Part shown: in pieces, positions 10,810-29,226 of the stretch | How positions within the stretch are numbered: the stretch's first letter is position 1 | Layout: each line of letters begins with the position of its first letter | Assembly: GCF_009600885.1 (NCBI RefSeq) | Contig: NZ_VCLA01000201.1 | Location: 1-64,000 of the forward strand | Length of the DNA stretch: 64,000 nucleotides | Source: Streptomyces jumonjinensis | GTDB lineage: Bacteria > Actinomycetota > Actinomycetes > Streptomycetales > Streptomycetaceae | Direction of reading: 5' to 3' | Position numbers and translations under genes: made by a program | Notes under the pieces: generated by a model | What the model was told of the DNA's origin: nothing | The model's input: the letters and a program-made list of their open reading frames with translations, nothing else | Database searches by the model: none

Positions 10810-11606
10810 TCCACGAAGTGGACGAGGGGCTACGGCTGCTGATGGTCGAGGCCGGCCTCCAGGAGAGCGGCGTCGAGCTGGTCTTCGACGCGCCGACGAA
10901 GGACTGGGCCGCCCGGCGCAACGCCCCCACGATCAGCGTCTTCCTCCACGGCATCCGTGAGGACACCGACCGCCGCCGTACCGGCACGGCCGAGGAGTAC
11001 GACGACCGGGGAATCGTCATCGGCCGGCGGACCCAGCCGCGCTGGTTCGAGCTGACCTATCTGGTCACCGCCTGGACCAACCGCCCGCAGGACGAGCACC
11101 GGCTGCTCTCCGAGGTGTTGCGCTGCCTCGTACGGTCCGACGTGCTGCCCGTCCGTATGCGCACGGGCAGCCTCGCCGAGCTCGGGCTGACGGTGGAGAT
11201 CGAGGCGGCGGGCCGGAGCGCCGACGGGCCGTCCGCCTCGGATCTGTGGTCCGCGCTCGGCGGTGAGCTCAAGGCCGGGATCGACCTGCGCGTATGGGCG
11301 CCGCTGGCCGGTGAGCGAACTCCCGTGGGCCCGCCGGTCACCGAAGGGCTGGTGGTGCGGGCCGCGCCCGCACCGGGCGGCGACGGGGCAGCACCGGGGC
11401 GACGGCTGCGCTACCACGGGGCGTCCGATCCCGAGGCGTCCGACCTCGGAGCGTCCGATCCCGGAGCGTCAGACCCCGGGGCATCCGATTCCGGGGTATC
11501 CGACCCCAGCGCGTCCGACCTCGGCGGGCATGGCTTCGCACCGGAACGTGAACGGCGGTCGCCGCCCGGCCGGCGCAGGCGCGGGGGCGGGGGCACGGCT
11601 CGATGA
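10806..11606 (+). CDS. DUF4255 CIS tail-terminator-like protein
   Basis: A 266-residue protein that starts at a GTG overlapping the previous stop. Residues 1-185 are a DUF4255 domain (VIHEVDEGLRLLMVEAGL, VFDAPTKDWAARRNAPTIS, RWFELTYLVTAWT), the family that caps the tube and sheath in PVC/Afp-like particles. The last ~60 residues are unusual: a run of five-residue ASDPG-type repeats and then an Arg/Gly-rich tail. It overlaps the AAA gene by 4 bases (ATGA). The core assignment is firm; the repeat tail looks lineage-specific and probably disordered. Confidence 0.85.
   Translation: MIHEVDEGLRLLMVEAGLQESGVELVFDAPTKDWAARRNAPTISVFLHGIREDTDRRRTGTAEEYDDRGIVIGRRTQPRWFELTYLVTAWTNRPQDEHRLLSEVLRCLVRSDVLPVRMRTGSLAELGLTVEIEAAGRSADGPSASDLWSALGGELKAGIDLRVWAPLAGERTPVGPPVTEGLVVRAAPAPGGDGAAPGRRLRYHGASDPEASDLGASDPGASDPGASDSGVSDPSASDLGGHGFAPERERRSPPGRRRRGGGGTAR
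11420..11525 (+). repeat. 15-bp coding tandem repeat (ASDPG units)
   Basis: About seven units of a 15-bp element related to GCGTCCGATCCCGGA encode Ala/Val-Ser-Asp-Pro/Leu/Ser-Gly/Glu/Ser pentapeptides in the DUF4255 C-terminus. Copy number could vary between strains. Confidence 0.8.
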
Positions 11607-13864
11607 CCATGACACCGGATGCCCGCGCCGTCCATGAACCGTCGGCCGTTCGTGAACCGTCCGACCCGGAGGCTATCCGTGAACCGTCCGACCCGGAGGC
11701 CGTACGTGAGCCGTCCGACCCGGAGGCCGTACGTGAACCGTCCGACCCGGAGGCCGTACGTGAGCCGTCCGGCCCCCAAGCGGCGGGCGTCGAGGACCTC
11801 TGGCAGCGGCTCGCCCATGTCGAGCAGCGGGTCAGACACGCCGTGGCGGCCCGGCACGCCGTCGACCCGGAACCGGACGATCCGTACCGGGGGCAGTACC
11901 TCACCCCCGAGGCGGTGGAGCGGATCGTCGCGTCCCGCGACGCGTTCGCGCCCGTACCGGCGTACGGCTCCGGGCCCGCGCCGCACTCCCCGCCCGGGAG
12001 CCGGATCGGGCGGCTCGCCGAGGACTTCGGCCTGGCGCCGCTCGATGTCGAGCTGCTGCTGATCGCGCTGGCCCCCGATGTCGACATCCGGTTCGAGCGG
12101 CTCTACGGCTACCTCAACGACGATCTCACCCGGCGCAGACCCGCCATCGGCCTGGCACTCGAACTCTGCGGACTGCCCGCCGCGAGCTCCGGCCGCTTCC
12201 GGTTCTCGCCGTCCGCCCCGCTCGTCGCGGGCGGGCTGCTGGAGATCCTGGAAGCCGACCGTCCGCTGCTCTCGCGGGTGCTGCGGGCGCCGGACCGGAT
12301 CACCGCGCATCTGCTCGGCGACGACGAGACCGACGGGAGGCTGCACGGCCTCGTCCGGGCGGCCTGGCCCGGGGCGGAGCCCGGCACGGGACCGGAGGCC
12401 CGGCGGGTCGCGGCGGCGCTGGGCACGGGCAGCGGACTGGTGTATCTGCTCGACCGGGGCGGCGACCCCGGCGGGCTGGCGGTCGAGGCGCTGCTCGCCG
12501 CCGGGCGCCGTCCGCTGGTGGTCGACGCCCCGGCGCTCGCCGCCGCTCCCGGACCGGCGGAGCTCGTACGGGCGCTGGCGGCCGAGGCCCGGCTGAGCCG
12601 CGGCGGGATCGTCCTCGGGCCGGTCGAGGCGCTCGCCCCGGAGCGGCCCGAGGGGGCCCGGCTGCTCCGGGGCCTCTGCGCGGCGGTCAGCGGCGCTCCC
12701 CTGATCGTGTACGGGAAGAAGAACTGGGACCCCCTGTGGACCGGGGAGAGCCCGGTTCCGGTCCGCGTCCCGCCCCCCGGCCCCGCGGACACGGCGCGGC
12801 GGTGGCGCCGGGCGCTCGCCGAGGCCGGCGCGTCCGCCGGGCTGCCCGCCGGTCCCCCGCCGGACGACGACGGACTCATCGAGGCCACCGCCTCCTACCG
12901 GCTCGACTCGGAGCAGCTGCGCAAGGCCGCCGCCGTCGCCTCCCGGCTGGCCGTCCTGGCGGAGCGTCCGGTGGACGTGCGGGACCTGCGCACGGCGGTA
13001 CGGGCGCAGAACGGCGCGGGGCTCGAACGGCTCGCCCGCCGCATCGAGCCCGCGGTCGGCTGGGACGATCTGGTGCTTCCTTCCGCGACCCGTCGCCAGC
13101 TGTCCGAGCTCGCCCTGCGCGCACGCCACCGCGACCAGGTGCTCGGGCAGTGGCGGATGCGGCCGGGCGGCGGCCGGGGGCGGGGGGTCATCGCCTTGTT
13201 CGCCGGTGAGTCCGGCACCGGCAAGACCATGTCCGCCGAGGTGGTGGCGGCGGAGCTCGGCATGGAGCTCTATGTGGTGGATCTGTCGTCCGTGGTGGAC
13301 AAGTACATCGGCGAGACCGAGAAGAATCTCGAAAGGATCTTCGTCGAGGCATCCGATGTCAACGGCATCCTGCTGTTCGACGAGGCGGACGCGATCTTCG
13401 GGAAGCGCTCGGAGGTCAAGGACGCGCACGACCGCCACGCCAATGTGGAGTCGGCCTATCTGCTCCAGCGGATGGAGTCCTTCGACGGGATCGCGGTGCT
13501 CACCACCAATCTGCGGGCCCATCTCGACGAGGCTTTCACCCGCCGTCTCGATGTGATCGCGGAGTTCCCCATGCCGGACGCCGGGCAGCGGCTGGCCCTG
13601 TGGGAACGCTGCCTCGGGGAGGCGATACCCCGTGACGCGGAGCTCGATCTGGAATTCTGCGCGGGACGCTTCGAGCTGGCGGGAGGATCGATCCGCGCCT
13701 GCGCGGTGACCGCCGCCTATCTGGTGGCGGAATCGGGGACGCCGCTCGGTATGGAGCAGATCGTCTCGGCCGTGCTCCAGGAGTACCGCAAACTCGGCCG
13801 GCTGGTCCTGGAGAGCGAGTTCGGCCCGTGGCTGGAGCGTGCGCGGGGGCGCGGCGAGGGGTAG
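11603..13864 (+). CDS. CIS AAA+ ATPase
   Basis: A 753-residue ATPase of the type found in nearly all extracellular and cytoplasmic contractile injection systems. Residues 12-57 are a tandem repeat of EPSDPEAVR. A winged/helical N-domain (about 60-180) and a degenerate first ATPase-like domain follow. The active AAA+ domain has Walker A GESGTGKT (535-542), Walker B ILLFDEADAIFG (Asp593, Glu594) and an arginine-rich sensor region (LDEAFTRRLDVIAEFPMPD). The family is required for particle assembly or stability in some systems. The repeat-bearing N-terminus is unusual and may be a docking tail. Confidence 0.92.
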   Translation: MTMTPDARAVHEPSAVREPSDPEAIREPSDPEAVREPSDPEAVREPSDPEAVREPSGPQAAGVEDLWQRLAHVEQRVRHAVAARHAVDPEPDDPYRGQYLTPEAVERIVASRDAFAPVPAYGSGPAPHSPPGSRIGRLAEDFGLAPLDVELLLIALAPDVDIRFERLYGYLNDDLTRRRPAIGLALELCGLPAASSGRFRFSPSAPLVAGGLLEILEADRPLLSRVLRAPDRITAHLLGDDETDGRLHGLVRAAWPGAEPGTGPEARRVAAALGTGSGLVYLLDRGGDPGGLAVEALLAAGRRPLVVDAPALAAAPGPAELVRALAAEARLSRGGIVLGPVEALAPERPEGARLLRGLCAAVSGAPLIVYGKKNWDPLWTGESPVPVRVPPPGPADTARRWRRALAEAGASAGLPAGPPPDDDGLIEATASYRLDSEQLRKAAAVASRLAVLAERPVDVRDLRTAVRAQNGAGLERLARRIEPAVGWDDLVLPSATRRQLSELALRARHRDQVLGQWRMRPGGGRGRGVIALFAGESGTGKTMSAEVVAAELGMELYVVDLSSVVDKYIGETEKNLERIFVEASDVNGILLFDEADAIFGKRSEVKDAHDRHANVESAYLLQRMESFDGIAVLTTNLRAHLDEAFTRRLDVIAEFPMPDAGQRLALWERCLGEAIPRDAELDLEFCAGRFELAGGSIRACAVTAAYLVAESGTPLGMEQIVSAVLQEYRKLGRLVLESEFGPWLERARGRGEG
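11639..11775 (+). repeat. 27-bp coding tandem repeat at ATPase N-terminus
   Basis: Roughly five near-identical 27-bp units encode EPSDPEAVR. The nucleotide units are almost identical, which points to recent expansion or homogenisation. Confidence 0.85.
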
Positions 13865-13887
13865 GCCGTGTCCGATGGATCGCGCCG

Positions 13888-13989
13888 GGGCTCGCGTGCC
13901 TTGACGATACTGTTCCCGACCGGGCTCGCGTGCCCTGGCCGCGCTGCTCCCGACCGGGCTCGCGTGCCCTGGCCGCGCTGCTCCCAGGC
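13888..13989. repeat. Three 34-bp tandem units between ATPase and DUF4157 genes
   Basis: Units at 13888-13921, 13922-13955 and 13956-13989 each begin GGGCTCGCGTGCC. The last two are nearly identical; the first has diverged in the middle. The 13865-14197 gap otherwise holds no credible gene. An upstream extension of the DUF4157 frame runs through it but has poor codon character. Confidence 0.8.
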
Positions 13990-14197
13990 GCCCCCCTCCA
14001 GGCCGGTGCTGCGGGTCCGGGGCGGATGTGTGCGTCCCGGAGGGCTGGGGGCGCTGCCTTACGGGGCAACTCCCGCTGCCCGCACGGCTCTTCCTTCCAC
14101 CGGGTGCGCCGCTAGGCTCGTACGGGTGAGCCCGCGGGGTGAGCGGCGTCCGGTCCGACCGTCGTCGCCCCGGTCGCGGCGGAAGGGGCCGGCAGCG

Positions 14198-14824
14198 GTG
14201 TACGCACATGAACGGCCGGCGAAGGCGGTGCGCCCAGGACCTTCGGCGCGGGCGGCCGGACGTGCCGGGTCGGCGTCCCGGCCCGGCCCCGGCCCGCTGA
14301 CGCCCGCACGGCTGATGGAGCTCCAGCGTGCCCTCGGCAACACCGCCGTGGCGCGCATGGTCGAAGAGGAGGCCGGGCACAGCGCGGCCGGACCGGAGCA
14401 CCGGCAGCCCGTACAGCGCGCCACGGCCCACACGGTGCTCCGCTCGCCGGGCCGGCCGCTGGACGACGGCGTCCGTGCCGAGATGGAGACCCGCCTCGGC
14501 TCCGACTTCTCCGATGTCCGCGTCCACGACGACAGCGCGGCCCGTGCCTCCGCCGTGGAGGTGGGGGCCCGCGCCTACACCTCGGGCAACCATGTCGTGA
14601 TCGGTCCGGGCGGGGCCGACCCGCACACCCTGGCCCATGAGCTCACCCATGTCATCCAGCAGCGCGAGGGGCCCGTGGCCGGCACTGACCACGGCGACGG
14701 CCTCAAGCTCTCGGATCCGTCGGACCGCTTCGAACGCGAGGCGGAGGCCAACGCGAGGCGAGCCATGGCCGCTCGGCCGCAGAGCGCGAGCGCGGACGCC
14801 CGCTCCGGCTCCCGGACGATCTGA
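14198..14824 (+). CDS. DUF4157 putative metallopeptidase, CIS-associated
   Basis: A 208-residue protein. I chose the GTG at 14198 because GGAAGG lies 11 bases upstream. It has the conserved lead-in LMELQRALGNTAVARM, then a DUF4157 domain (LGSDFSDVRVHDDSAARA, ARAYTSGNHVVIGPG) with the zinc-peptidase motif HELTH at 147-151. DUF4157 proteins are hallmark neighbours and often cargo or toxin leaders of eCIS loci. This copy ends soon after the domain, so it carries no separate toxin domain. It may process other proteins or be a stand-alone effector. The function is inferred from family and context. Confidence 0.85.
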   Translation: MYAHERPAKAVRPGPSARAAGRAGSASRPGPGPLTPARLMELQRALGNTAVARMVEEEAGHSAAGPEHRQPVQRATAHTVLRSPGRPLDDGVRAEMETRLGSDFSDVRVHDDSAARASAVEVGARAYTSGNHVVIGPGGADPHTLAHELTHVIQQREGPVAGTDHGDGLKLSDPSDRFEREAEANARRAMAARPQSASADARSGSRTI

Positions 14825-14828
14825 CGCC

Positions 14829-14855
14829 GGGCCGACGCCGAGCCGGCGTCGGCCC
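14829..14855 (+). terminator. Hairpin terminator after DUF4157
   Basis: Perfect 12-bp arms (GGGCCGACGCCG / CGGCGTCGGCCC) around an AGC loop start 4 bases after the stop codon. There is no T tract, as is usual for Streptomyces hairpin terminators. Confidence 0.8.
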
Positions 14856-14957
14856 GTAAGGGGCGACCCCGCGAGCCCATACAGGCCCGGGTTCCGGCTG
14901 CTCGGGAGTGCTCAGCACCGGCGACCACGGGCGACGGCCCACGCTCCCGGCCCAGCG

Positions 14958-15009
14958 CGTACCAACAGCACGTACCAACAGCACGTACCAACAGCACGTA
15001 CCAACAGCA
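14958..15009. repeat. Four exact 13-bp tandem repeats
   Basis: CGTACCAACAGCA occurs four times in perfect tandem in the 14825-15328 gap between the CIS terminator and the next cluster. The rest of this gap shows no gene. The stretch 15183-15245 is AT-rich and probably carries the promoter of the following genes. Confidence 0.85.
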
Positions 15010-15328
15010 CGGCCGGAACGGAGCACACCGCTCCACGAGTTCCCGGCACACCGCACCCCGGCCCCTGCCGCCCTCGTACGGCCGCATGCCGCCGCACCGG
15101 TCCAAGGGGCCGGATTCCGCCGGGCCCCGATGCTCACCGCCCGTCAGAAGACGCCCGCCCGGCGGTCGGAAAACCCGGCACTTGACTGAATCTACTCAAT
15201 CCCGTTGTCATTCCTCGACAAAGAAAATGATCGTCTCCTACGTTTAGCGCTCGCCGGTCCTGGCGGCCACTCCCGCGACGGAGCCCCATGGCCCGAGTGC
15301 ATACGGTCGATTCCCTACGGAGGCACTT

Positions 15329-16033
15329 ATGACCGACCTCTTGACCCCGTTGGCCAGACCCCGGGACCGTGTCTCCCCGGCACGGCGGAGGGGGATGCCG
15401 GCGGCCTCCGACCGACCGTTCTATGTCCTGCTCGGCCCGGACGGCGCGGGGAAGTCCTCGGTCCTGACGGAAGTCGGGAACCGGCTGCCCGGCTGGCGCA
15501 TGCTCTCCACGGACGACGACTTCGCCCACTCCGGGCACCCTCTCATCAGCAGACTGCGGCGCGATGTGGTCCAGGACGTCCTGCCGGGCCTCGGCACCCA
15601 CTACTCCGCCGACTTCCTCGCCTGCCTCCTCCAGACCGCCGTGGTCCACCTCCGGGACCAGTTGGAGCGCCAGCCCGGCGAACTGCCGCTGCTGATGGAC
15701 TCGTACTACTACAAGATTCTCGCGAAATGCCGGCTGGCCGGAATACCGACGAACCCCATGTACGCCTGGTGGCGTTCCTTCCCGCAGCCCCGCGCGGTGC
15801 TCTATCTCGATGTCTCGCCCGCCTCGGCGTGGCGGCGCTCGGGGAACGGGGCCCGGCTCAATCCGCTGGAGTACTTCGGCGAGCGCCCCGAGTGGCCGGG
15901 GTTCGAGAGCTACCAGAAGAGCCTGCGCGAACTGATGCTGGAAGAGGTACGGGAACTGCCGGTGACCGTCATCGGCGAGCAGAGCTGTGTGAACCGGACC
16001 GCCGACGCCGTGACGGAGGTGCTCGCAGCATGA
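15329..16033 (+). CDS. P-loop kinase-like protein
   Basis: A 234-residue soluble protein of the thymidylate-kinase/AAA P-loop kinase type. Walker A is GPDGAGKSS near residues 38-46, a substrate-site DDDF lies near 65, and a DSYYYK motif near 125 resembles the kinase DRY-like region. WWRSFPQPRAVLYLDVSP matches the strand before the LID. The substrate is unknown. It is the first gene of a compact cluster, overlaps the GH3-type gene by 4 bases, and may phosphorylate a pathway intermediate or the small molecule made there. The assignment as a kinase is reasonable; the pathway is inference. Confidence 0.7.
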   Translation: MTDLLTPLARPRDRVSPARRRGMPAASDRPFYVLLGPDGAGKSSVLTEVGNRLPGWRMLSTDDDFAHSGHPLISRLRRDVVQDVLPGLGTHYSADFLACLLQTAVVHLRDQLERQPGELPLLMDSYYYKILAKCRLAGIPTNPMYAWWRSFPQPRAVLYLDVSPASAWRRSGNGARLNPLEYFGERPEWPGFESYQKSLRELMLEEVRELPVTVIGEQSCVNRTADAVTEVLAA

Positions 16034-17772
16034 CCGCTGACACCGATCCCACCAGCGCCGATCCCACCGGCACCGGGAGCACCGGCACCGGTGCCGCCGG
16101 CGGCTGGGGCTCCCCCGGCCACGCCGACCGCTACCGACGGCGGGTCTGCGCCGAGCGTGACCGGCTTGCCGTCGCCCTCGGGAGCATGCGCGCCCACCAG
16201 CACGACGTCCTCACCGATCTGCTCTCCTTCAACGCGGATACCGCATTCGGCCGGGAGCACGGCTTCGCGCGGATCCGCGACATCGACGACTTCCGCCGGG
16301 CCCTCCCCGTACAGGACTACGCCGCCCACGCGCCGCTGATCGAGCGGACGGCGGCCGGGGAGCCGAACCTCCTCTCCGCCGACCGGCCCGTGGTCTACTT
16401 CACCAGCAGCGGCAGCACCGGCGACCGGAAGAAGGTCCCGGTCACCCCGCGGTTCATGCGCACCACTTTCTTCCCCTTCTACTACGCGGCCTGGGCGCCC
16501 CTCGTGGAGAACTTCCCCGACATCGCGCACCGTCCCGACGCCGTCCTCAACCTCAAGCACGACCCGATCGCCCAGCCGCCCACCACAGCCGACGGCCGCC
16601 CCCATGTCGGGGCCAGCCAGGTCGACTTCGGCGCGAAGTTCGGCGAGCCGCTCTCGGCCGAACCGGGCACCGCCGCCCCCTGGGGCGCCCTCCCCGTGGG
16701 CGTCGCCCCCGACGACCACCTGGAGAAGATGTATCTGCGGCTGCGGCTCGCCGTGCAGAGCGACATCCGCTGCCTCATCGGCATCAACCCGGCGATGATC
16801 GCGGCCGTCCCCTACCAGCTCGCCCTCTGGTGGGAGCGGATCGTCCGGGAGGTGCGCGACGGCACCCTCGGCGGCGTCCCGTACGGCGCCCCCGACCCGG
16901 CCCGCGCGGCCGAACTGGAACGGCTCGCCGCGTACTTCGGCACGGTCTCGCCCGCGTATGTGTGGCCCCGCGTGCGGGCGCTCTTCGGCTGGACCACGGG
17001 CGTCGCCTCGCTCTATCTGCCCGCGCTGCGCGAGCAGTTCGGGTCCGGCGTGACGGCGCTGCCCGCGCCGGTCGCGGCCTCGGAGGGGCCGGTGGGGGTA
17101 CCGCTGGACCGGCACGGCTCGGCGGGCAGCCTCGTCGTCACGGCCTCGGCGTACGAGTTCGCCGACGCGGAGGCCGATCTCGCGCCCGACTCCGCGACCC
17201 TGCTGCCGCACGAGCTGGAGGCAGGGCGCGAGTATCACGTGATCTTCAGCCATGTCGGCGGGCTGTACCGGTACGCCGTCGGCGATGTCGTCCGCGTCCT
17301 GGACATGCCGGGCGGGGTGCCCCGCGTCGAGTACGCGGGCCGCGCGGGCCGGTCCGACGCCGCCGGGGAGCGGCTGCGCGAGTCGCAGGTGATCCGCGCG
17401 CTGCGCGCCGCGCTGACGGCCACCGGTCTCAGCCTGGTCAACGTCGCCTGCCGGACCGAACAGGCCCCCGGCGGGCGTGAGGCGCCGCGCTATGTCTTCG
17501 CGATCGCCCCGCGGAACGCCTGGCGGCCGGAGGAGACCGAGCGCTTCGCGGCGCTGCTGGACCGGGCGCTGGAGCGGGAGTCCGCGGAATACCGCGGGGT
17601 GCGGGCGCGGGGGGCGCTGTCCGCGCCGGCGGTCCGGCTGCTGGACCCGGAGGCGTTCTTCCGGGACTGGCACACGGCCGTGGGGAGCGGGATCCGCCCC
17701 ACGCAGGTGAAGGACCGGCTGTTCCGGCAGGATGATGCGTTGTGGAAGCGGCTGACCGACGGGTCCGGCTGA
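16030..17772 (+). CDS. GH3-family acyl-adenylate/amido synthetase
   Basis: A 580-residue member of the GH3 family, named for plant auxin/jasmonate-amino-acid conjugating enzymes. It has the ATP/AMP loop FTSSGSTGDRKKVP (about 118-131), the central LFGWTTGVASLYLPAL and VAASEGPVGVP segments, and the hinge motif HVGGLYRYAVGDVVRVLDM. Family members adenylate a carboxylic acid and transfer it to an amine. The first ~35 residues are a Thr/Gly-rich tail. In this cluster it is the best candidate for the bond-forming enzyme. Bacterial GH3 proteins are little studied, so the substrates cannot be named. Confidence 0.88.
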   Translation: MTADTDPTSADPTGTGSTGTGAAGGWGSPGHADRYRRRVCAERDRLAVALGSMRAHQHDVLTDLLSFNADTAFGREHGFARIRDIDDFRRALPVQDYAAHAPLIERTAAGEPNLLSADRPVVYFTSSGSTGDRKKVPVTPRFMRTTFFPFYYAAWAPLVENFPDIAHRPDAVLNLKHDPIAQPPTTADGRPHVGASQVDFGAKFGEPLSAEPGTAAPWGALPVGVAPDDHLEKMYLRLRLAVQSDIRCLIGINPAMIAAVPYQLALWWERIVREVRDGTLGGVPYGAPDPARAAELERLAAYFGTVSPAYVWPRVRALFGWTTGVASLYLPALREQFGSGVTALPAPVAASEGPVGVPLDRHGSAGSLVVTASAYEFADAEADLAPDSATLLPHELEAGREYHVIFSHVGGLYRYAVGDVVRVLDMPGGVPRVEYAGRAGRSDAAGERLRESQVIRALRAALTATGLSLVNVACRTEQAPGGREAPRYVFAIAPRNAWRPEETERFAALLDRALERESAEYRGVRARGALSAPAVRLLDPEAFFRDWHTAVGSGIRPTQVKDRLFRQDDALWKRLTDGSG

Positions 17773-17830
17773 CGCCCCGACTCCCCCGGTCCGGGCCTCC
17801 TGGGGCTCGCGGTACGGGTTTGTACGGGCG

Positions 17831-17852
17831 GTACGGGCGGGCGTGCCCGTAC
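17831..17852. terminator. Inverted repeat in gap after GH3 gene
   Basis: Arms GTACGGGC and GCCCGTAC (8 bp, perfect) enclose a 6-base loop, 59 bases after the stop. Further direct copies of GTACGGG precede it. The remaining gap to 18222 shows no gene. This may be a terminator or a regulator-binding cluster. Confidence 0.45.
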
Positions 17853-18222
17853 AACCCGTACAGCCGCCGTGCACGGCCGCATGGGTGCACAGGAGCACGG
17901 GTGCGATCCACCCCGTACGACCTGCCCGGAACCCGTCCGGGACCACGCGGCCGACGGGTCCCGGACCGGCCGTCCGCCCGACCGCTTCCGTCATCGGGCG
18001 TCCCGGACCGGTGCACCCTCGAACCCGCCGTACGGCCAGGGGAGACCGACCCTGCCGAGGCCGCCCGACCGCAACCGGACCGCCCCGACATCGGCCACCG
18101 GGGCTTCCGGGGCCGCCCCGGGAGCCCCCGCCGACACCCCGTCACCCCGACACCCCCGTCCCCGAAGCCCGCAGCGCACGCGGCGCCCCCACCCCACCCC
18201 CATCCGACCCGAGGAGACCGAC

Positions 18223-19080
18223 ATGATCGACCTGAGCTGCCCGGTGGAGCGGACCGCTCTGCTCACCGCCGCCCTGCGGGCCGCCGAGACCCGGCGCGAG
18301 GACCGCATCTACACGGACCCCTACGCCGCACGGCTGGCCGGCGACGCGGGCCCTGAACTGCTCGCCGAGGTACGGGCCGCCACCTTCCCGGCCGGCCGGC
18401 GGCGCACCGTCCCCGACACCCCCGACTTCAACGCCATCCGCACCCGGTTCTTCGACGACTTCCTCCACGACGCCGCCCGCGAGCCGGGGATGACCCAGAT
18501 CGTGATCGCCCCCGCCGGCATGGACTCCCGCGCCTACCGCATGGAGTGGCCCGGCCACATCCGCTTCTTCGAGATCGACCGCACGGATGTGGTGGAGTTC
18601 AAGGCCGAACGGCTGCACGGCGTCACCCCCCGGGTCGCCCACCGCACCGTCGCCGTCGATCTCACCGACGCCGACTGGGAGACGCGGCTGACCGACGCGG
18701 GCTACGACCCGGAGCTGCCGTCCACCTGGCTGCTCGAAGGGCTGCTCTACTACCTGCCGGAGGGGGACGCCCGCCGTCTGCTGGAGCGGGTGGCCGCCAT
18801 CGCCGCGCCCGGCAGCCGGATCGCCGCCGACCTGGTCAACTCGGCGGCCCTGACCCTGCCCAGCATGCGCGAGCTGCTGGAGGTCTTCGCCGGCTGGGGC
18901 TGTCCCTGGCAGTTCGGCAGCGACGAGCCCGAGGCCCTGTTCGAGCGGTGCGGCTTCGCTGTGGAGGCCGTCCAGCCCGGTGAGCCCGGCGCGGACTTCG
19001 GCCGCTGGCCGGACCCGGTGCCGGACCGCTCCGTCGAGGGCGTCCGCCGGGTCTTCTTCGTCCACGGACACCGCCGATGA
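18223..19080 (+). CDS. SAM-dependent methyltransferase (LCMT/TIGR00027 type)
   Basis: A 285-residue class I methyltransferase related to leucine carboxyl methyltransferases (COG3315). The SAM-binding motif is VIAPAGMDSRAYRM, a variant of the usual G-A-G-x-D-T-R-A-Y-R. It is followed by FFEIDRTDVVEFK, the DLTDADWETRL strand and the WLLEGLLYYLPEGDARRLL active-site helix. The ATG at 18223 follows GAGGAGA at a good distance. Such enzymes often O-methylate carboxyl or hydroxyl groups of natural products, which would fit the neighbouring GH3 enzyme. Confidence 0.88.
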   Translation: MIDLSCPVERTALLTAALRAAETRREDRIYTDPYAARLAGDAGPELLAEVRAATFPAGRRRTVPDTPDFNAIRTRFFDDFLHDAAREPGMTQIVIAPAGMDSRAYRMEWPGHIRFFEIDRTDVVEFKAERLHGVTPRVAHRTVAVDLTDADWETRLTDAGYDPELPSTWLLEGLLYYLPEGDARRLLERVAAIAAPGSRIAADLVNSAALTLPSMRELLEVFAGWGCPWQFGSDEPEALFERCGFAVEAVQPGEPGADFGRWPDPVPDRSVEGVRRVFFVHGHRR

Positions 19081-19162
19081 CCGCGCCCGCCGCCGGCCCG
19101 GCCCGGCTTCCCCGTCCGGACGCCGCGGGGCCCACCGCCGGTGGAGCACCCGTGATGGGAAC

Positions 19163-20305
19163 ATGACCGGCCCAGCACGGCCCCGGGTCCTGCTGGCGCC
19201 GGTCACCGTCACCCCGTCGAAGCCGCTGACCCCCAGCCATCTCAAGGGCCTGCTCTGGGCCGATGTGATGTACCGGGCCACGGCGCCGCTCGCCGAGGTG
19301 ACCTACCGCTACAGCCATACGACGTACCATCCGACCGAACAGACCCTGGGCTTCTGGGAGTTCCTCGACCGCACCCACGGCGACATCGACTACTCCGGTC
19401 TGTCGGAGACGGAGATCGGCGAGTTGTACGTGGCCTACCGCGGCGAGGGCGCGACCGCCACCGCCGGGGACATGCGGCCCTACGCCGACGCCGTGGAGCG
19501 GACCGGCTTCGTCCACCCGGCCAGCGCGCTCGTACTGCGGCTGTGGGCCGGACACTACGAGAGGCTGGGGCTGTACGATCCGGGGCTGCTGACCCACCAG
19601 CCCCCCGGCTACGGCCTGGAGGAGATGGTGTCCGACCTGGTCGCGGCCGGTCTCGGCCTGGACCAGCGGAGGCTGGGCGGCCCGGTCTATCTCGACGCGA
19701 CCCGGTTCGGGCTGCCGCTGAGGCAGATCATCACCGCCGAGGGCCGCCCCAACTATCTCGCCTGCGCCCTGCGCGAACTGCTCCCCCTGGCACCCCGGTA
19801 CGACGAGATCGTGGTGCTGTACGACCGGGAGCTCGACCCCGACTACCAGCTGCTGGAACGGGTGCTCGCCCAGCGGGGCCCCACCGTGCGCCGCGTCCCC
19901 ATCGGCCGGGTGCCGATCGAGGGGCGGATCACCTCGGCCCGGCACGGGGGCTGGCACGGCCACACCGTCGACGCCCTGCTGCGGACGCTGGGCGACCACT
20001 GCTCCCCCGAGGCGCTCCGGCTCGGCGTGCGGCTGTACTTCATCGCCGGCCTCGGCCCAGGACAGCGGGAGTCCTTCCGACACGAGCTGCTGCGCCGCAG
20101 CATCGCGCGGGCCGGGCAACTGCTGGAACGGGCCGGGAACCAGCCCGACGAGCCGGCGGTACGGCGGACGCCTTCGCAGCTGACCCGCCTCCTGGAGCCG
20201 CACCGGCGCGACCATCTCCACATCGATCCGTACCGGCTCACCTCCTCCCTGCTCAAACGGGGCCGGACCCCCTCGCGCCCACTGCTCTCCGAGGTGTTCC
20301 TATGA
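19163..20305 (+). CDS. Unrecognised conserved-looking enzyme-like protein
   Basis: A 380-residue cytoplasmic protein with normal Streptomyces codon use and a good ATG at 19163. I do not recognise the family. It begins with VTVTPSKPLTPSHLKGLLW and DVMYRAT. It contains YSHTTYHPTEQTLGFWEFLD, GGWHGHTVDALLRTLGDH and RLGVRLYFIAGLGPGQRESF, which look like conserved enzyme segments rich in His, Tyr and Arg. It has no signal peptide or membrane helix. It overlaps the next gene by 4 bases and follows the methyltransferase closely, so it is very probably part of the same small-molecule cluster. Confidence 0.8.
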   Translation: MTGPARPRVLLAPVTVTPSKPLTPSHLKGLLWADVMYRATAPLAEVTYRYSHTTYHPTEQTLGFWEFLDRTHGDIDYSGLSETEIGELYVAYRGEGATATAGDMRPYADAVERTGFVHPASALVLRLWAGHYERLGLYDPGLLTHQPPGYGLEEMVSDLVAAGLGLDQRRLGGPVYLDATRFGLPLRQIITAEGRPNYLACALRELLPLAPRYDEIVVLYDRELDPDYQLLERVLAQRGPTVRRVPIGRVPIEGRITSARHGGWHGHTVDALLRTLGDHCSPEALRLGVRLYFIAGLGPGQRESFRHELLRRSIARAGQLLERAGNQPDEPAVRRTPSQLTRLLEPHRRDHLHIDPYRLTSSLLKRGRTPSRPLLSEVFL

Positions 20306-21111
20306 CGCTCAGCCCCACGTTCCTGCTCTCCGTCGCCGCCGGCCGGCTGCGGACCACCCGCCCCGACCTCGCGGCGGACCTGGACCTGACCAGCCTTGAG
20401 GGCCTGCGCGGGGCACAGGCCGTCCTCGCGGACCGGGAGGCGGCCGAGCACGGCGACCGGACGGTCGTCGTCGCCGTCGTCGGCGACTTCGACCTGCCCC
20501 GATGGGTGGTCGACACCTGCCGGTTCGCCCTCGCCGTACCCGCCGAACGGGCCGGAGCATGGCGGCACGCCTTCACCCGTACCGTCTATCTGGCGGGCCG
20601 GCCGGACAGTCTGCGGAAACGATTCACCTTTGACCATGTCGCCGAGGACGGCTCGATCGCCTGGTCCGGTCCCGCCCCTGAGGCGGACACGGAGAGCCTG
20701 CGGCGGCTGCTCAAGACCTTCAGCGGCGGCCGGGAACTGGCCGCGTGGGCTCCGGTCACCGTCACCGTGCCCGGGGCTGGGCCGCCGCCCGGGGCCACGG
20801 GACGCATGGAGGGCGAACCGCACGGGGCCGGAACCCGCCAACCCGTCGCCCGGGATCTGTACATCGCCACGGCGCGGGTCACCGTGGCCGACGCCCTCGT
20901 TCAGGTGAACCACCTGCTCGTGGAGTCCGCCATGGACGGGACGGTGAGACCGGGCGACCGGCTGACCCTGCGCTCGGTCCCCCGTCTCACGGGCCTGTCC
21001 GTGCCGCTCGCCGCCCTGCGCGTGGACACCGACCCGCACCGCCCCGGCGAGCTGCGAGCCTACGCCGGCCTGACCGAAGCGACCGAGGACAGCTCCGGCC
21101 TCCCGGGCTGA
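20302..21111 (+). CDS. Unknown-function protein, possibly DUF6182
   Basis: A 269-residue soluble protein coupled to the previous gene (ATGA). Visible features are RTVVVAVVGDFDLPRWVVDTC, the FTRTVYLAGRPDSLRKRFTF segment and AEDGSIAWSGPAPEADTESL. A C-terminal portion (DALVQVNHLLVESAMDGTVRP, RLTGLSVPLAALRVDTD) looks like a dehydratase or hot-dog-like tail. From memory it resembles the DUF6182 group of Streptomyces proteins, but I am not sure. It is the last gene of the cluster; a strand switch follows. Confidence 0.75.
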   Translation: MTLSPTFLLSVAAGRLRTTRPDLAADLDLTSLEGLRGAQAVLADREAAEHGDRTVVVAVVGDFDLPRWVVDTCRFALAVPAERAGAWRHAFTRTVYLAGRPDSLRKRFTFDHVAEDGSIAWSGPAPEADTESLRRLLKTFSGGRELAAWAPVTVTVPGAGPPPGATGRMEGEPHGAGTRQPVARDLYIATARVTVADALVQVNHLLVESAMDGTVRPGDRLTLRSVPRLTGLSVPLAALRVDTDPHRPGELRAYAGLTEATEDSSGLPG

Positions 21112-21159
21112 TGGCAGTAACGGCCGGAACACGGATTCCAAAGTGCCGACGAGGCACCG

Positions 21160-21395
21160 TCATGGGCGACGGGCCGCCGGGTCTTCCCGGCGGCCCGTCG
21201 CTTCCATGAGGGTGCGCGCCGTCCACGGAGGCTGCGGAAGCGCCCGGAAGAAGGGGCCGTCGGGCGCGAAATTCCGCGAATGGATGGCCGTTTCCTCGCC
21301 CTGGAGATACGCGAGCATCCATGCGTTGAACGTCATCGCGTACTCGGTGGACACGCACTCGTCCCGCTCGATGACAGCGACGCCCCAGTCATCCG
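21160..21395 (-). pseudogene. C-terminal gene remnant, possibly SMI1/KNR4 (SUKH)-like
   Basis: In the gap 21112-21446 one minus-strand frame encodes natural-looking sequence (WGVAVIERDECVSTEYAMTF, then NAWMLAYLQGEE and FAPDGPFFRALPQPPW). Further upstream the same frame is only a shadow of the Lrp gene. The base composition is lower in GC than the neighbours. It looks like the truncated end of a lost gene. The SUKH-like suggestion is weak. Confidence 0.4.
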
Positions 21396-21446
21396 AGCCC
21401 TTCCGGGGGCTTCGTGGTCTCTGTCGCCGGCCGGTGCCATCAGGGC

Positions 21447-22478
21447 TTACAGCAGCGTCGGCGCATGGAACGCGCCGAGGCCGGAGGACAGGTCCCGGTC
21501 GACCCAGTAGCGGCGCGGTTCGACGAGCATGACGTCGACGCTGACCGCGAGGATGCCGGGGATCTCGGCCAGCTCGCTGTCGATGAAGAGCGCCAGGGCG
21601 GAGCGGTCGGCGACCAGGCCGGTGGCGAGGACGGACATGTCGCTGGCGACATGGGCGACGAGCCGGGTCTGGGGGAGCTGGTCGATGCGGCGCATGACGT
21701 CGGGGGTCTCGCCCGGGGCCACGCGCAGGCGGAGCATGAAGGGGGTCTGGAAGCCGAGCCACTCCGACACGATCTCCAGGCGCGGTCTGACCCATCCCTC
21801 GTCGAGGACCCGGCGGACGACGCGGTGTGCGGTGGAAGTGGCCAGGCCGGTGGTCCGGGCGATGCTCGCGGCGGATGCGCGACTGTCCTGGATCAGCTCG
21901 GCGACGACGGTGCGTTCGGCCTCGCTGAGTGGTTTGGCGGGAGGTGTCGCGGTCGCGGTGGCGGTGCCCCCGGGCCGGGCGCCGGTGAGCTTCAGCAGAT
22001 CGTCGCGTTCGGTGCCGGTGAGGAACTGAGGGTCCCAGGTGATGCCCCGGCGCAGGGTGCTGAGGGCGGGCAGGGCGTTGACACGGCGTACACCCGGGAC
22101 GGAGAACATCCGGTCGATCGCCTTGCTGGTAGCCGCCTCGGAAGGGGCGTGGACCACGACGTAGAGAGGGTAGTCGCCGGAGATCTGCGCCAGCAGTTGG
22201 AGGTGCGGCAGGTCACGGAGCCGCTGGAGGACGGCCAGCGGAGTCTCCCCGGTGATGTCCAGGAAGACGTGAACCGGCATCGCCGTGGAGTGCATGCCCC
22301 AGTCGGCCTGCCCGATCACGCGGACCATCCGCGCCTCGCGCAGCCGGTCGTAACGGCGTTTGAGCGTGCTGGCATCGGCGGCCAGGATCCCGCCGATGTC
22401 GTCCCAGGTGCCCCGGGGTGCCAGATGCAGCGCGCCGATGAGGCGCCGGTCGAGCTCGTCGAGGAGAGGGCGGGTCAT
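21447..22478 (-). CDS. Lrp/AsnC regulator with two tandem modules
   Basis: A 343-residue protein with two consecutive AsnC/Lrp modules, about twice the usual length. The first has an HTH near residues 5-55 (LDELDRRLIGALHLAPRGTW, ADASTLKRRYDRLREA) and a RAM-like domain to ~150. The second HTH is near 180-235 (LSEAERTVVAELIQD, IARTTGLATSTAHRVVRRVL), with a second RAM-like domain to the end. It is divergent from the AbgT gene with a 115-base shared promoter region, so it most likely controls the transporter/peptidase pair in response to an amino-acid-type ligand. Confidence 0.9.
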   Translation of the reverse strand: MTRPLLDELDRRLIGALHLAPRGTWDDIGGILAADASTLKRRYDRLREARMVRVIGQADWGMHSTAMPVHVFLDITGETPLAVLQRLRDLPHLQLLAQISGDYPLYVVVHAPSEAATSKAIDRMFSVPGVRRVNALPALSTLRRGITWDPQFLTGTERDDLLKLTGARPGGTATATATPPAKPLSEAERTVVAELIQDSRASAASIARTTGLATSTAHRVVRRVLDEGWVRPRLEIVSEWLGFQTPFMLRLRVAPGETPDVMRRIDQLPQTRLVAHVASDMSVLATGLVADRSALALFIDSELAEIPGILAVSVDVMLVEPRRYWVDRDLSSGLGAFHAPTLL

Positions 22479-22593: not shown

Positions 22594-24147
22594 ATGAGCA
22601 CCACCTCCGTCCAGCCTCCGCCGGCCGAGCCGCAATCGAGAGTGCTGCGCACCGCGTTCCGGGGTTTCGCGGCGATCGAGAGGGTCGGCAACCGACTCCC
22701 CCACCCGTTCTGGCTGTTCTGGATGCTGGCGGGGGTCGTCGCCGTCCTCAGCGCCGTGCTGGCGGCGGCCGACGTGAGCGCCGTGCACCCCGGCACGAAC
22801 GAGACCATCACGGTGGAGAACCTGCTCAGCCAGGGCGGTCTCACCATGGCCATCGAGGGGGCCGTCGACAACTTCGCGGCCTTCCCGCCGCTGGCCACCA
22901 TCCTCACCGTGATGTTCGGCATCGTCGTCGCCGAGAAGAGCGGACTCTTCTCCGCCCTGCTGCGCCGCATGGTCGCGCGGGTGCCGGGCAAGTACCTCAC
23001 CTTCGCCCTGTCGCTGACAGCGATGGTCAGCCATGTCGCGGGCGACGCCGCCTACTTCACCCTCGTCCCGATCGGCGCGCTGATCTTCCGTGCGGCGGGC
23101 CGAAGCCCGGTCCTCGGCTGCATCGTGGCCTATGTCTCGATCTCCGCCGGGTACAACGCATCCCCGTCCCTCACCACCACCGACGTCCTGCTCTCGGGCA
23201 TCTCCACCGCCGCCGCCCAGACCATCGACGCGGATTACGTCGTCACCCCGGTGGGCAACTACTTCTTCGGAATCGGCTCGTCGGTCCTGGTGGCCCTGGT
23301 GATCACCCTCGTCGTCGACAAGGTCATCGCCCGGCGCTCGGACCTTGAGCCCGACGAGCCGACGGCCGAGCCGAACGCCACGGAGCTGGAGGCGATCGAG
23401 GTCACCGCGGAGCAGAGCCGCGCGCTGCGCGTGACCGGGCTGGTCGCCATCGGCTTCCTCGCGTTCCTGGTGGCGGCCATGACCCCCGCGTCGTCACCGC
23501 TGCGCGGCGAGGGCGGCGGCATCGTCAACTCCCCGGTGATCGGCGGGATGGCGCTCGTCCTGGGCCTGTTCTTCGCCGTGCTCGGTACGGTCTACGGGCG
23601 GATGACCGGCAGCTTCTCGGCCGCCCGCGACATCATCGCGGCGATGGTCGACGGCACCCGGTCGATGGCGCCGATCCTCGTCCTGTTCTTCGCGATCTCC
23701 CAGTTCCTCGCCTACTTCAAGTGGACCAACATCGGCGACATCCTCGCCGTCAAGGGCGCCGAGACGCTGCGCGCCCTGGACATGCAGGGCTGGACCGTGC
23801 TGGTCGGCATCGCCGTACTGATCACGATCATGAACCTCGTCATCACCAGCGGCTCCGCGCTCTGGGCGCTGGCCGCGCCGGTGCTCGTGCCCATGCTGAT
23901 GCTCATCGGCATCTAGCCCGAGACCACCCAGGCCGTCTACCGCGTCGCCGACTCCGTCACCAATTGCGTCACCCCGATGAGTCCGTACTTCGTGATGGCC
24001 CTGGGCTTCATCCAGCAGTACCGCAAGTCCGCCGGGATCGGCACCCTGGCCTCCTTCACCATCCCGATCGCCGCCGTCGTCTGGGTCGCCTGGATGGCGT
24101 TCTTCGTGGCCTGGTACCTGCTCGGCATCCCCTTCGGCGTCAGCTGA
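22594..24147 (+). pseudogene. abgT: AbgT-family transporter interrupted by in-frame TAG
   Basis: A predicted p-aminobenzoyl-glutamate importer or drug exporter of the AbgT family with 11-13 hydrophobic segments. It reads normally to codon 440, then has TAG at 23914-23916. The same frame continues without shift for another 76 codons to a TGA at 24147. The continuation (PETTQAVYRVADSVTNCVTP, then SPYFVMALGFIQQY) is the conserved family C-terminus. The full 516-codon length matches the family. A serine codon (TCG to TAG) fits the conserved Ser-Pro-Glu here. The truncated 440-residue product lacks the last transmembrane helices. A sequencing error, a real nonsense mutation or readthrough are all possible. 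Confidence 0.88.
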
Positions 24148-24197
24148 CCCGCCCTTCCGCCGGAAGCCTCCCCTGACCTCGTACGAGAAAGCAGATC

Positions 24198-25394
24198 ATG
24201 ACCGCATCGCCCGCAGCCGTCCTCACCGCCCGCGCCCAAGAGGTGTCATCGGAGATCGTCGCCGACATCCTGCGGCTCGTCCGCCACGAGACCAACAGCT
24301 ACGATCTGCCCGGTCTCGCAGGGGGCCTGGACCTTCTGCGCGAGCTGACCGTCCACCGGCTCGGCCGGCCCGACCGCGAACAGCGTCATCCCGGCGGCGA
24401 GTGCGGCGACACCCTCACGCTGACCTACACCGGCGCCGGCGCCGGGCACGTCGCGCTCATCGGCCACTACGACACCGTATGGCCGGCCGGCGCCCTCGCA
24501 GGATGGGAGCAGCCGACGACGCCCGACGACGGCCGGGTCAAGCTCAGCGGGCCGGGTGTCTTCGATATGAAGGCGGGTCTGATCCAGGGCATTTGGGCCC
24601 TGAAGCTGGCCCGGGAGAGCGGCGCTCCCCTGCCCACGGTCACCTTCCTCTTCAACGGCGATGAGGAGATCGGCTCCCTGTCCTCACGGCCGGTGATCGA
24701 GGAGGTCGCGCAGCAGGTCGATGCCACGCTGGTGCTGGAGCCGACCGCCCACGGCGCGGTCAAGACCGCCCGCAAGGGTTCCGGGATCTTCCAGGTCACG
24801 GCCATCGGCGTCGAGGCGCACGCCGGGCTCGCGCCTCAGGACGGGGCGAGCGCGATCACCGCGCTCTCCGAGTTCGTGATCGCCGCCGCCGCTGTCGCCG
24901 CCCCCGACCAGGGCACCACGATCAACACCGGGCTCATCACGGGCGGCTCCGCCACCAACGTCGTCGCCGGTCAGGCCACCGCCAGCATCGACATCCGGAT
25001 CAGCAGCGAGGCCGAACAGGTCCGTGTCGACAGAGAAATGGACGCCATCAGGGTCAGTGACCCCCGCGTCCGCATCGAGATCGACCACGCCTGGAACCGG
25101 CCGCCGATGACCCTCGGCGCCGCCTCCGCCCCCCTGCTCGACCTCGCCCGCGAGGTCGCCCGCGAGCAGGGCCGCCCCGGCCTGCCCGACGCCGCCGTCG
25201 GCGGCGCCAGCGACGCCAACTTCGTCGCCGCCCTCGGTCTGCCCGTACTGTGCGGCATGGGCGCGGTCGGCGACGGCGCCCACGCTCAGGGCGAGTTCAT
25301 CTACCCCGACACCGTACCGGCCCAGACCGCCCTGGTCGCGGGCCTGCTGGGACGACTGGCAGCACCGCTGCGAGGCTCGGCCACGGCGTCCTGA
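24198..25394 (+). CDS. M20 metallopeptidase (glutamate carboxypeptidase-like)
   Basis: A 398-residue zinc peptidase of the CPG2/AbgB-like M20 family. Metal and catalytic residues are present: LIGHYDTVWP (His, catalytic Asp), GVFDMKAG (bridging Asp), FNGDEEIGS (Glu-Glu), LVLEPTAHG (Glu) and a C-terminal GDGAHAQGE (His). The dimerisation domain lies near 185-300. It is encoded 50 bases after the AbgT gene. The pair suggests uptake and hydrolysis of p-aminobenzoyl-glutamate or other N-acyl-glutamates for folate salvage. If the transporter is dead, this enzyme may be orphaned. Confidence 0.9.
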   Translation: MTASPAAVLTARAQEVSSEIVADILRLVRHETNSYDLPGLAGGLDLLRELTVHRLGRPDREQRHPGGECGDTLTLTYTGAGAGHVALIGHYDTVWPAGALAGWEQPTTPDDGRVKLSGPGVFDMKAGLIQGIWALKLARESGAPLPTVTFLFNGDEEIGSLSSRPVIEEVAQQVDATLVLEPTAHGAVKTARKGSGIFQVTAIGVEAHAGLAPQDGASAITALSEFVIAAAAVAAPDQGTTINTGLITGGSATNVVAGQATASIDIRISSEAEQVRVDREMDAIRVSDPRVRIEIDHAWNRPPMTLGAASAPLLDLAREVAREQGRPGLPDAAVGGASDANFVAALGLPVLCGMGAVGDGAHAQGEFIYPDTVPAQTALVAGLLGRLAAPLRGSATAS

Positions 25395-28686: not shown

Positions 28687-29226
28687 ATGGCCAAGGTGTC
28701 CCGCAAGGTTCTCTTACCCGCGCTGCTCTCGCTGGCGGCCTTCGCGCTGCCCTCGCCCGCCACGGCCGCCACGGTCGCCACGGCCGACGCCGCACCGTCC
28801 GGCGCGGTCGCCACCGCCGACGCCGTACCATCCGGCGCGGCCGCCCCGCTCGTCGGCAACCAGTGTCTGGCCACGAGCTACCCCTCCTTCTACGCGGCCA
28901 GCGTGAAATCGTGCAACGGGTCCTCGTCCGAACAGCGCTGGACCGTCAGCGGCGAGCTGATCCGGATGGCCGCCCACCCCGGCATGTGCCTGTCCACCAA
29001 CTACCCGTCCTTCTACGCGGTCAGTGTCGACGGGTGCAACGCCTCCTCCGCGAAGCAGCGCTGGACCTTCGACGGCGAACTGATCCGGATGGCCGCCCAC
29101 CCCGGCATGTGCCTGTCCACCGGCTACCCCTCGTTCCTCGCGGCCAGCGTGTCCGGATGCAACGCGTCCTCGTCGCAGCAGCGCTGGACCGGACTGGGCG
29201 AGCTGATCAGCCTGACCGCGTACTGA
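28687..29226 (+). CDS. Secreted three-repeat lectin-like protein with TTA codon
   Basis: A 179-residue secreted protein. The signal peptide covers about residues 1-28 (KVLLPALLSLAAFALPSPA, ending ATAA). After an Ala-rich spacer come three tandem ~41-residue repeats (about 57-98, 99-139, 140-179). Each has a CL(A/S)T-x-YPSF start, a second Cys in CN(G/A)SS, QRWT and GELI. The three-fold QRW pattern resembles ricin-B beta-trefoils, so one trefoil made of three near-identical units is likely. Codon 10 (28714-28716) is TTA, implying bldA-dependent, developmentally timed expression. The ligand is unknown. Confidence 0.85.
   Translation: MAKVSRKVLLPALLSLAAFALPSPATAATVATADAAPSGAVATADAVPSGAAAPLVGNQCLATSYPSFYAASVKSCNGSSSEQRWTVSGELIRMAAHPGMCLSTNYPSFYAVSVDGCNASSAKQRWTFDGELIRMAAHPGMCLSTGYPSFLAASVSGCNASSSQQRWTGLGELISLTAY

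Follow-up and report, generated by a model that had tools for sequence, protein, structure and literature searches.

A five-gene set of Streptomyces jumonjinensis combining a GH3-family ligase with a protein of predicted aminoacyl-tRNA synthetase fold

The first 64,000 nt of contig NZ_VCLA01000201.1 of Streptomyces jumonjinensis, which we call the window, carry five closely spaced genes that an earlier note, made from the sequence alone, read as a compact cryptic biosynthetic cluster based on a GH3 adenylating enzyme. The locus raises two questions: whether the five genes belong together, with the GH3 enzyme as their center, and what a set of this kind may make.

The five genes and their families

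The genes analyzed are as follows.

15329..16033, + strand: P-loop kinase with a distant likeness to thymidylate kinase (Walker A GPDGAGKS; family alignment)
16030..17772, + strand: GH3-family acyl-acid amido synthetase, an adenylating ligase (Pfam domains, PDB relatives, motifs)
18223..19080, + strand: SAM methyltransferase of the LCM / TIGR00027 family, carboxyl-methyltransferase type (profiles, PDB relatives)
19163..20305, + strand: the 19163 protein, of an unnamed family, with a predicted class I aminoacyl-tRNA synthetase (aaRS) fold nearest to ArgRS
20302..21111, + strand: DUF6182 protein, or 20302 protein (Pfam), whose residues 53-143 weakly resemble Pth2 in a predicted model

The compact arrangement on one strand described earlier was confirmed: all five frames are open and intact on the + strand, and 4-base ATGA overlaps join the first pair (kinase and GH3) and the last pair (19163 protein and DUF6182). 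GGAGG is present just 5' of the kinase ATG at 15329. The 450-nt gap between the GH3 and methyltransferase genes is the longest among 26 such gaps measured across loci, and because of this gap we are unsure that the five genes form a single transcript; a pattern scan of 14800-21450 found neither a sigma-70-like promoter nor a terminator, a result which decides nothing on this point. Gene starts in the locus set came from a simple caller that trimmed the window kinase to 15395 and the GH3 gene to 16186, and these trimmed forms were used in the 33-locus family clustering, the trees, the dN/dS and motif scan, and the kinase alignment.

The kinase lies below the Pfam and NCBIfam cut-offs (Thymidylate_kin, E 0.0032; TIGR00041, E 0.00077), scoring 19.2 bits against the 83.25 that TIGR00041 demands of a dTMP kinase, and its best PDB profile match is a thymidylate kinase (E 0.027). 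We set aside a defense role of the set, taking PADLOC's one match for the five proteins (Csx16 to the kinase, E 0.0072) as chance. The assignment of a GH3 adenylating enzyme held well, since the N-terminal, middle and C-terminal GH3 domains all exceed the Pfam cut-off (E 2.7e-41, 2.1e-13 and 4.3e-10). A PDB search with an E limit of 1 yielded 20 sequences, the first ten of which are plant GH3 enzymes (top E 1.1e-15). The stretches SSGSTGDRK, AASEG and YRYAVGD, which we take to be the nucleotide-binding motifs of GH3 enzymes, are intact in the window, and patterns of these types were matched in 24, 27 and 25 of 27 loci, respectively; judged from its domains and motifs, the protein is a member of the acyl-acid amido synthetase family. 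The SAM methyltransferase was likewise correctly recognized, exceeding the cut-off of LCM / TIGR00027 and having ML2640 and Rv0731c as PDB relatives.

The remaining two proteins had been called unrecognized. This description stands for the 19163 protein as far as Pfam and NCBIfam are concerned, in which no match was found, but the protein is recognizable through its predicted fold; the 20302 protein belongs to a named Pfam family, DUF6182 (E 1.5e-98), which has no named function.

Co-conservation and the split between two loci

Using the 19163 protein as a query we found 32 further loci, which together with the window make a set of 33, each containing this protein by construction. DUF6182 is present in 31 of them, the LCM methyltransferase in 31, and the kinase and GH3 in 27 each, some contigs being short. 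At 19 of the 33 loci there are nine genes in one order: kinase, GH3, methyltransferase, FAD epoxidase-like protein, 19163 protein, DUF6182, LysR-domain protein (without the DNA-binding part), alpha/beta hydrolase and methyltransferase. S. spongiae (L033) is a carrier of a nine-gene set. The five window genes stand without the other four at 5/33 loci, and five-gene forms recur in L036 (Wenjunlia vitaminophila), L051, L055 and L059. The five window genes are the core of this travelling nine-gene set. Of 249 genomes of the family, 17 have the 19163 protein, and these 17 are also the ones with DUF6182; at 19 places in these genomes DUF6182 lies nearby at 18, the kinase at 16 and the window-type GH3 at 16. 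The co-occurrence search proposed for the 19163 and 20302 proteins has thus found the five genes together elsewhere, where the earlier note had named a lack of co-conservation as the ground for giving up its reading.

What did not survive is the choice of center. Two divergent loci (in G009 and G117) keep the 19163 protein, DUF6182 and the kinase and have no match to the window GH3 at E 0.001, and for this reason "GH3-based" names the wrong center. The steady core of the cassette is the pair of 19163 protein and DUF6182 rather than GH3: the two are together at 18 of the 19 places. Their genes overlap by 4 bases in 22 of 30 gaps measured. The earlier interpretation is retained in part: what stands is a compact gene set that includes a GH3 ligase, is co-conserved and looks biosynthetic.

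The neighbors of divergent loci include HMG-CoA reductase (L071) and polyprenyl synthetase (L074), and more weakly a marginal terpene-synthase match (L073) and a sub-threshold UbiA match (L070). An isoprenoid reading fits an epoxidized alkene, but neighbors differ from locus to locus and it stays a hint. We also considered an isonitrile function, on the basis of a DIT1_PvcA gene beside one distant 19163 relative (G023:C11, 34% identity, L021/L072), and dropped it because this relative has lost the K-P and the H of the TPSH stretch described below, has no adjoining DUF6182, and is the only such place.

The same nine-ORF block has been published once: the rubiginone cluster of Streptomyces sp. 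CB02414 carries it as rubM2-rubP4, an insertion left without explanation (PMC8487521). Compared by annotation, order and size, it shares the nine gene kinds and the order of the window's relatives, read in reverse, with similar sizes (methyltransferase 288, hydrolase 260, "Lys regulator" 212, hypothetical 254 and 373, oxidoreductase 488, methyltransferase 291, GH3 567, hypothetical 209), whereas only five of the nine are in place in the window. That paper suggests insertion by transfer, assigns no function or step, and lists the proteins of 19163 and DUF6182 type as hypothetical. It also records a matching nine-gene stretch in S. hundungensis (DWB77_01891-01899) that antiSMASH did not recognize, in agreement with the expectation that cluster finders would miss such a set (PMC8487521).

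The four genes missing from the window are on contig C202 of the same genome, in a second copy of the cassette; the FAD and LysR-domain genes were found by searches of the own genome, and the hydrolase and second methyltransferase were read beside them. Exactly the kinase, GH3, 19163 protein and DUF6182 are lost or truncated in this copy, so the cassette is split between two loci. In the GH3 tree the window is nested among nine-gene relatives as the sister of L034 (98/89), a locus having the four genes that the window lost, and the methyltransferase of the second copy groups with L040/L041. No relics of the four genes were found in intergenic stretches near the window copy among the best 25 matches, which look like composition noise because composition correction was off. 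Since the tailoring half lies in the second, decayed copy, the two loci may work together; such cooperation is not required, as several genomes have the five-gene form and lack the other four.

Predicted structures of the steady pair

The model of the 19163 protein (pLDDT 90.1, pTM 0.90) matched ArgRS in Foldseek at E 4.9e-11, the best 20 matches all being ArgRS entries, and gave a VIA Z of 23.1 over 354 residues against ArgRS. A class I aaRS fold, nearest to ArgRS, is thus predicted with high confidence; by this prediction the protein is related to the tRNA-charging enzymes and has been repurposed. With positions assigned by eye, TPSH (residues 23-26) replaces the canonical HIGH where that motif would be expected, at the beginning of the first helix, and the KMSKS region reads SARHGGW (residues 258-264); both being non-canonical, synthetase activity may be lost. 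Profile-profile comparison with ArgRS by hhalign failed to detect the relationship (probability 0.1, or 3.6 with a more diverse set), and no aaRS was among the PDB profile-search matches.

A class I synthetase fold working outside translation has a precedent in MshC, the cysteine ligase of mycothiol synthesis and a class I aaRS paralogue. The predicted 19163 fold matches MshC at Z 20.7; MshC is CysRS-derived, whereas the 19163 model is nearest to ArgRS and has TPSH for HIGH. SbzA and AcmF are similar in being synthetase-like enzymes within Streptomyces biosynthetic clusters, but they are IleRS-like and AlaRS-like, respectively, according to a review of aaRS-like natural-product enzymes, in which the words arginyl and peptidyl-tRNA hydrolase are absent (PMC12945691).

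For DUF6182 (model pLDDT 90.4), the best VIA comparison with Pth2 gave Z 8.0 over 91 residues (53-143) at rmsd 2.3, a Z that a common arrangement may give. Foldseek gave no match at E 0.001 (best E 0.25), hhalign against Streptomyces PF01981 proteins was not significant, and PDB profile searches returned no Pth2; the model weakly suggests a domain resembling this peptidyl-tRNA hydrolase. The predicted aaRS-like fold of the 19163 protein, together with the possible Pth2-like domain of DUF6182, is what is new here. Searches of a mostly open-access literature found no paper on DUF6182 and, among the titles listed, no further report of the cassette.

Proposed function and alternative readings

We consider, with a probability of about 0.5, that the five genes form the heart of a small specialized-metabolite cassette, in which amide bonds are made by aaRS-like and GH3 adenylating enzymes and no PKS or NRPS takes part. 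From the families we infer that GH3 would convert a carboxylic acid to its adenylate and join it to an amine. The 19163 protein would activate an amino-acid-like acid on its class I synthetase fold and hand it over, whether straight to an amine, the route taken by the CysRS relative MshC, or by way of tRNA, and DUF6182, nearly always found with it, would be its partner in transfer or hydrolysis. Phosphorylation of a substrate or pathway intermediate may fall to the kinase, and methylation of a carboxylate to the LCM-type enzyme. In fuller versions the flavin epoxidase, hydrolase, second methyltransferase and LysR-domain protein would tailor an alkene-bearing product; among solved structures, the flavin epoxidases MonCI and LasC are most closely related to the FAD gene, which is absent from the window and present on C202 (FAD family against MonCI, E 2.4e-29, nearly the whole profile covered). 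A bolder form, which we regard as unlikely, is that an ArgRS-derived activator and a Pth2-derived transferase make a new kind of two-component aminoacyl-transfer machine, delivering an amino acid to a small molecule acylated by GH3 as well, and that in this genome the pathway depends on two cassette copies, each acquired separately and each reduced where the other is not.

A tentative alternative, for which we see only a minor chance, is that the product is a lipid or signal containing an amino acid, with GH3 joining a fatty acid and an amino acid as OlsH does and the rest modifying the lipid. OlsH, a GH3-family enzyme of ATP-dependent amide formation that makes N-acyl ornithine (PMC12493201), is the only NCBIfam match of note for the window GH3 (NF052613, E 1.6e-20), and fatty-acyl genes (AfsA, ketosynthases, ACP) adjoin divergent loci. 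The match of 73.1 bits is far below the curated cut-off of 620 for lyso-ornithine lipid synthetases, however; the cassette is patchy (17/249), and one GH3 leaves the aaRS-like protein and DUF6182 unexplained. The window GH3 also has different neighbors from OlsH.

Improbable, in our judgment, is a role of the 19163 protein and DUF6182 in protecting translation, the former as a decoy that resembles a synthetase and the latter as a likeness of peptidyl-tRNA hydrolase, so that the producer resists a product of its own that poisons tRNA charging. Both predicted models resemble tRNA enzymes, and SbzA is described as a cluster-borne synthetase copy conferring self-resistance (PMC12945691); but a resistance copy is expected to remain a working synthetase, while the 19163 protein has no profile similarity to a working ArgRS, and the pair is found with differing neighbors. 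It is just as doubtful that the window copy has lost its function and is decaying: the loss of four genes still present in the sister locus, and the truncated genes on C202, would suit such decay, but the five frames are intact, their dN/dS against L034 and L035 is 0.20-0.44, and five-gene forms recur at the loci given above. An extracellular contractile injection system lies directly upstream: its eCIS_core protein ends ~500 bases short of the kinase, and sheath, tube, Pvc16 and AAA genes follow farther out. That the five genes serve this system is hardly credible, for a gene family outside the nine is found at 6 of the 33 clustered loci at most and the cassette neighborhood is thus not conserved.

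Should the 19163 protein prove to activate amino acids, as the amide-forming reading proposes, the repurposed synthetases of natural-product chemistry would include an ArgRS-like branch, and its pairing with DUF6182 would offer a means of searching for clusters that lack PKS and NRPS genes. A block previously left as an unexplained insertion now gets a testable biochemical idea, and S. jumonjinensis, with its two-locus split, may be a case of one pathway shared out between two copies gained by horizontal transfer.

The five genes and the nine-gene unit

An earlier note had described five open reading frames on a single strand, the first and the last pair of genes each overlapping by 4 bases; both the positions and the overlaps proved correct when the frames were checked:

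15329-16033, + strand, divergent P-loop kinase
16030-17772, + strand, GH3 enzyme
18223-19080, + strand, LCM methyltransferase
19163-20305, + strand, the 19163 protein
20302-21111, + strand, DUF6182 protein

Family searches supported the GH3 enzyme with three domains over cut-off and the methyltransferase with an LCM/TIGR00027 match, while the kinase was closest to thymidylate kinase, under every cut-off. Of the two proteins called unrecognised, the 19163 protein indeed gave no match in these searches; the last is a DUF6182 member. Against two relatives the five genes have dN/dS of 0.20-0.44, and therefore all are under purifying selection. The remark that bacterial GH3 enzymes are rarely studied was overstated, as the accessible text on OlsH, which makes N-acyl ornithine, indicates (PMC12493201).

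Upstream, extracellular contractile injection system genes (2493-14824: T4 gp19-like tube, sheath, Pvc16_N, AAA ATPase with a winged-helix domain, eCIS_core protein) end about 500 bases before the kinase. Other genes of the window encode an AbgT-family transporter beside an M20 peptidase (22594-25394), preceded on the other strand by a protein with two Lrp/AsnC-type halves, a small protein with a ricin-type beta-trefoil lectin domain (28687-29226) and a MerB alkylmercury lyase (30452-31432).

A scan of genome contigs that used the 19163 protein as query yielded 32 loci; with the window added, the genes of all 33 were clustered into families. Nine families are each present at 24 or more of the 33 loci, the next commonest at 6, and the genes flanking the nine vary between loci. 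The order is kinase, GH3, LCM methyltransferase, FAD enzyme, 19163 protein, DUF6182, a protein of about 212 aa with a LysR substrate-binding domain, alpha/beta hydrolase and second methyltransferase. The five genes are thus found together at other loci, as part of a nine-gene unit: 19 loci have the full nine in that order, five have the five genes alone (the window, L036, L051, L055, L059), and nine are cut by a contig end, rearranged or otherwise incomplete (L038, L041, L042, L043, L047, L050, L052, L060, L063); L047 lacks a kinase or GH3 just upstream, though 7 kb of sequence is present there.

By annotation, gene order and size, this unit is the same block as nine ORFs, rubM2 to rubP4 (8.8 kb), that lie among the rubiginone genes of Streptomyces sp. 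CB02414, and the cassette itself is therefore not new. According to the accessible text of that report, the organisation is identical to S. hundungensis DWB77_01891-01899, where antiSMASH found no cluster, and its authors proposed insertion by horizontal transfer, that text giving no function (PMC8487521).

Predicted folds of the 19163 and DUF6182 proteins

The AlphaFold2 model of the 19163 protein, built with 33 sequences, has pLDDT 90.1 and pTM 0.90. Foldseek returned 57 PDB matches with E no higher than 0.001, and the best 20 of them are all arginyl-tRNA synthetase (ArgRS) entries (top E 4.9e-11), one being a chain of the ArgRS-GlnRS-AIMP1 complex. By VIA-align the model fits N. gonorrhoeae ArgRS with Z 23.1 (354 residues, rmsd 4.3), CysRS with Z 21.4 and MshC with Z 20.7. 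The match starts near residue 111 of the N. gonorrhoeae enzyme and extends to its C-terminal end, so the ArgRS N-terminal domain is missing. Inspection of the model by eye places the nearly invariant K20-P-L-T-P-S-H26 at the start of the first helix (24-40), the HIGH position; its K-x-x-T-x-S-H spacing is that of K-x-x-H-x-G-H in the aligned ArgRS sequences, S258-A-R260-H-G262-G-W264 lies at the position of K-T-R-E-G-E, and Ala replaces the conserved Asp of Y-A-A-T-D-L. We take this Asp to contact the arginine side chain, and its replacement would make arginine an unlikely substrate. Sequence-profile comparison with ArgRS did not pick up this relation (hhalign probability 0.1; with a more diverse set, probability 3.6, E 0.012, 40 columns). 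In our judgement a synthetase fold is highly probable.

For the DUF6182 model (pLDDT 90.4), Foldseek gave nothing at E 0.001, the best match being Bit1 (E 0.25). Among 944 re-aligned chains the best was the AF2095 peptidyl-tRNA hydrolase (91 residues, rmsd 2.3), at Z 8.0, where Z 8 is the stated level of common arrangements. The six best entries were AF2095, Bit1, the S. solfataricus peptidyl-tRNA hydrolase and three structural-genomics entries, presumably Pth2 proteins; the next had Z 2.9. Comparison with Streptomyces PF01981 proteins by hhalign was not significant, and the modelled likeness to Pth2 is suggestive only. That the pair has a tRNA-related role is, in our judgement, rather unlikely.

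Our literature search found neither the synthetase-like reading nor a paper naming DUF6182, and the accessible part of a 2026 review of aminoacyl-tRNA-dependent enzymes contains neither 'arginyl' nor 'peptidyl-tRNA hydrolase' (PMC12945691).

Distribution and the second copy

In a sample of 249 genomes of the family, the 19163 protein and DUF6182 are confined to one and the same set of 17. DUF6182 lies within about 1.5 kb at 18 of the 19 places with a 19163 protein, the exception being a divergent copy (34% identity) with a degenerate TPSH stretch; the kinase is near at 16 of 19, as is this GH3, and two genomes (G009, G117) have the 19163 protein, DUF6182 and kinase with no match to this GH3. 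The LysR-domain protein is a less telling marker: it has matches in 172 of the 249 genomes, most of them weak, as ordinary LysR proteins, and close ones (at least 45% identity), among the matches listed, in 8 genomes, all with the 19163 protein. The 19163 protein was found in 2 of 396 phylum-wide genomes, both from the window's genus, at one Streptosporangium locus among the 32, and on 1 of 72,556 plasmid records, so the pair belongs mostly to the Streptomycetaceae.

Genome G169 has the cassette twice on a chromosome-sized contig (C1, 71510-72619 and 8710660-8711769), with equal scores, in opposite orientation and near both ends, as expected of terminal inverted repeats. L157 (G100:C1 766001-786000) has at 9677-11256 a second kinase and LCM methyltransferase pair without other core genes, adjoining, by eye, apparent ketosynthase III, reductase and acyl-AMP-ligase genes and ABC transporters. 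L072 (G023:C11 209001-229000) has at 7299-10308 a degenerate 19163-protein relative beside a DIT1_PvcA isonitrile-synthase-like gene and a probable dioxygenase.

The window's own genome has a second, reciprocally reduced copy (L067, contig C202, about 14457-19996). It keeps open frames for the methyltransferase (77% identical to the window's), FAD enzyme (58% to that of L032), LysR-domain protein, hydrolase and second methyltransferase, with dN/dS of 0.23-0.57, followed by a P450-like gene recognised by eye. The kinase, GH3 and DUF6182 remnants match only residues 152-234, 16-133 and 230-259, and a search with the 19163 protein found none there. Each copy thus keeps what the other lost, the first methyltransferase remaining in both. 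With four losses per copy placed at random among nine genes, the probability that none coincide is 5 in 126; the evidence is no more than mild, because gene loss goes in blocks. In the GH3 tree the window is nested among nine-gene relatives as sister of L034 (98/89); the absence of the four genes is therefore a loss and not a gain still to come. The two copies differ in origin, since the C202 methyltransferase clusters with L040/L041 (91/87). In the genomes of the five-gene loci L036 and L051 (taken to be G008 and G041), the LysR-domain protein has matches of the LysR type only, all weak. Cooperation of the window and C202 loci is possible, though we would put it somewhat below even odds.

Possible chemistry

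A profile search with the FAD family matched the flavin epoxidases MonCI (E 2.4e-29) and LasC/Lsd18 (2.5e-21) over nearly full length, so an alkene is the probable target of oxidation in the nine-gene form. Divergent loci adjoin HMG-CoA reductase, polyprenyl synthetase, terpene-synthase-like, ketosynthase and AfsA genes, and these neighbours hint at isoprenoid or fatty-acyl substrates, fixing none. The earlier interpretation of a GH3-based biosynthetic cluster stands in part: the most likely reading, with a probability of about 0.5, is that the five genes form a small specialised-metabolite cassette, which would have two adenylating ligases and not the GH3 enzyme alone.
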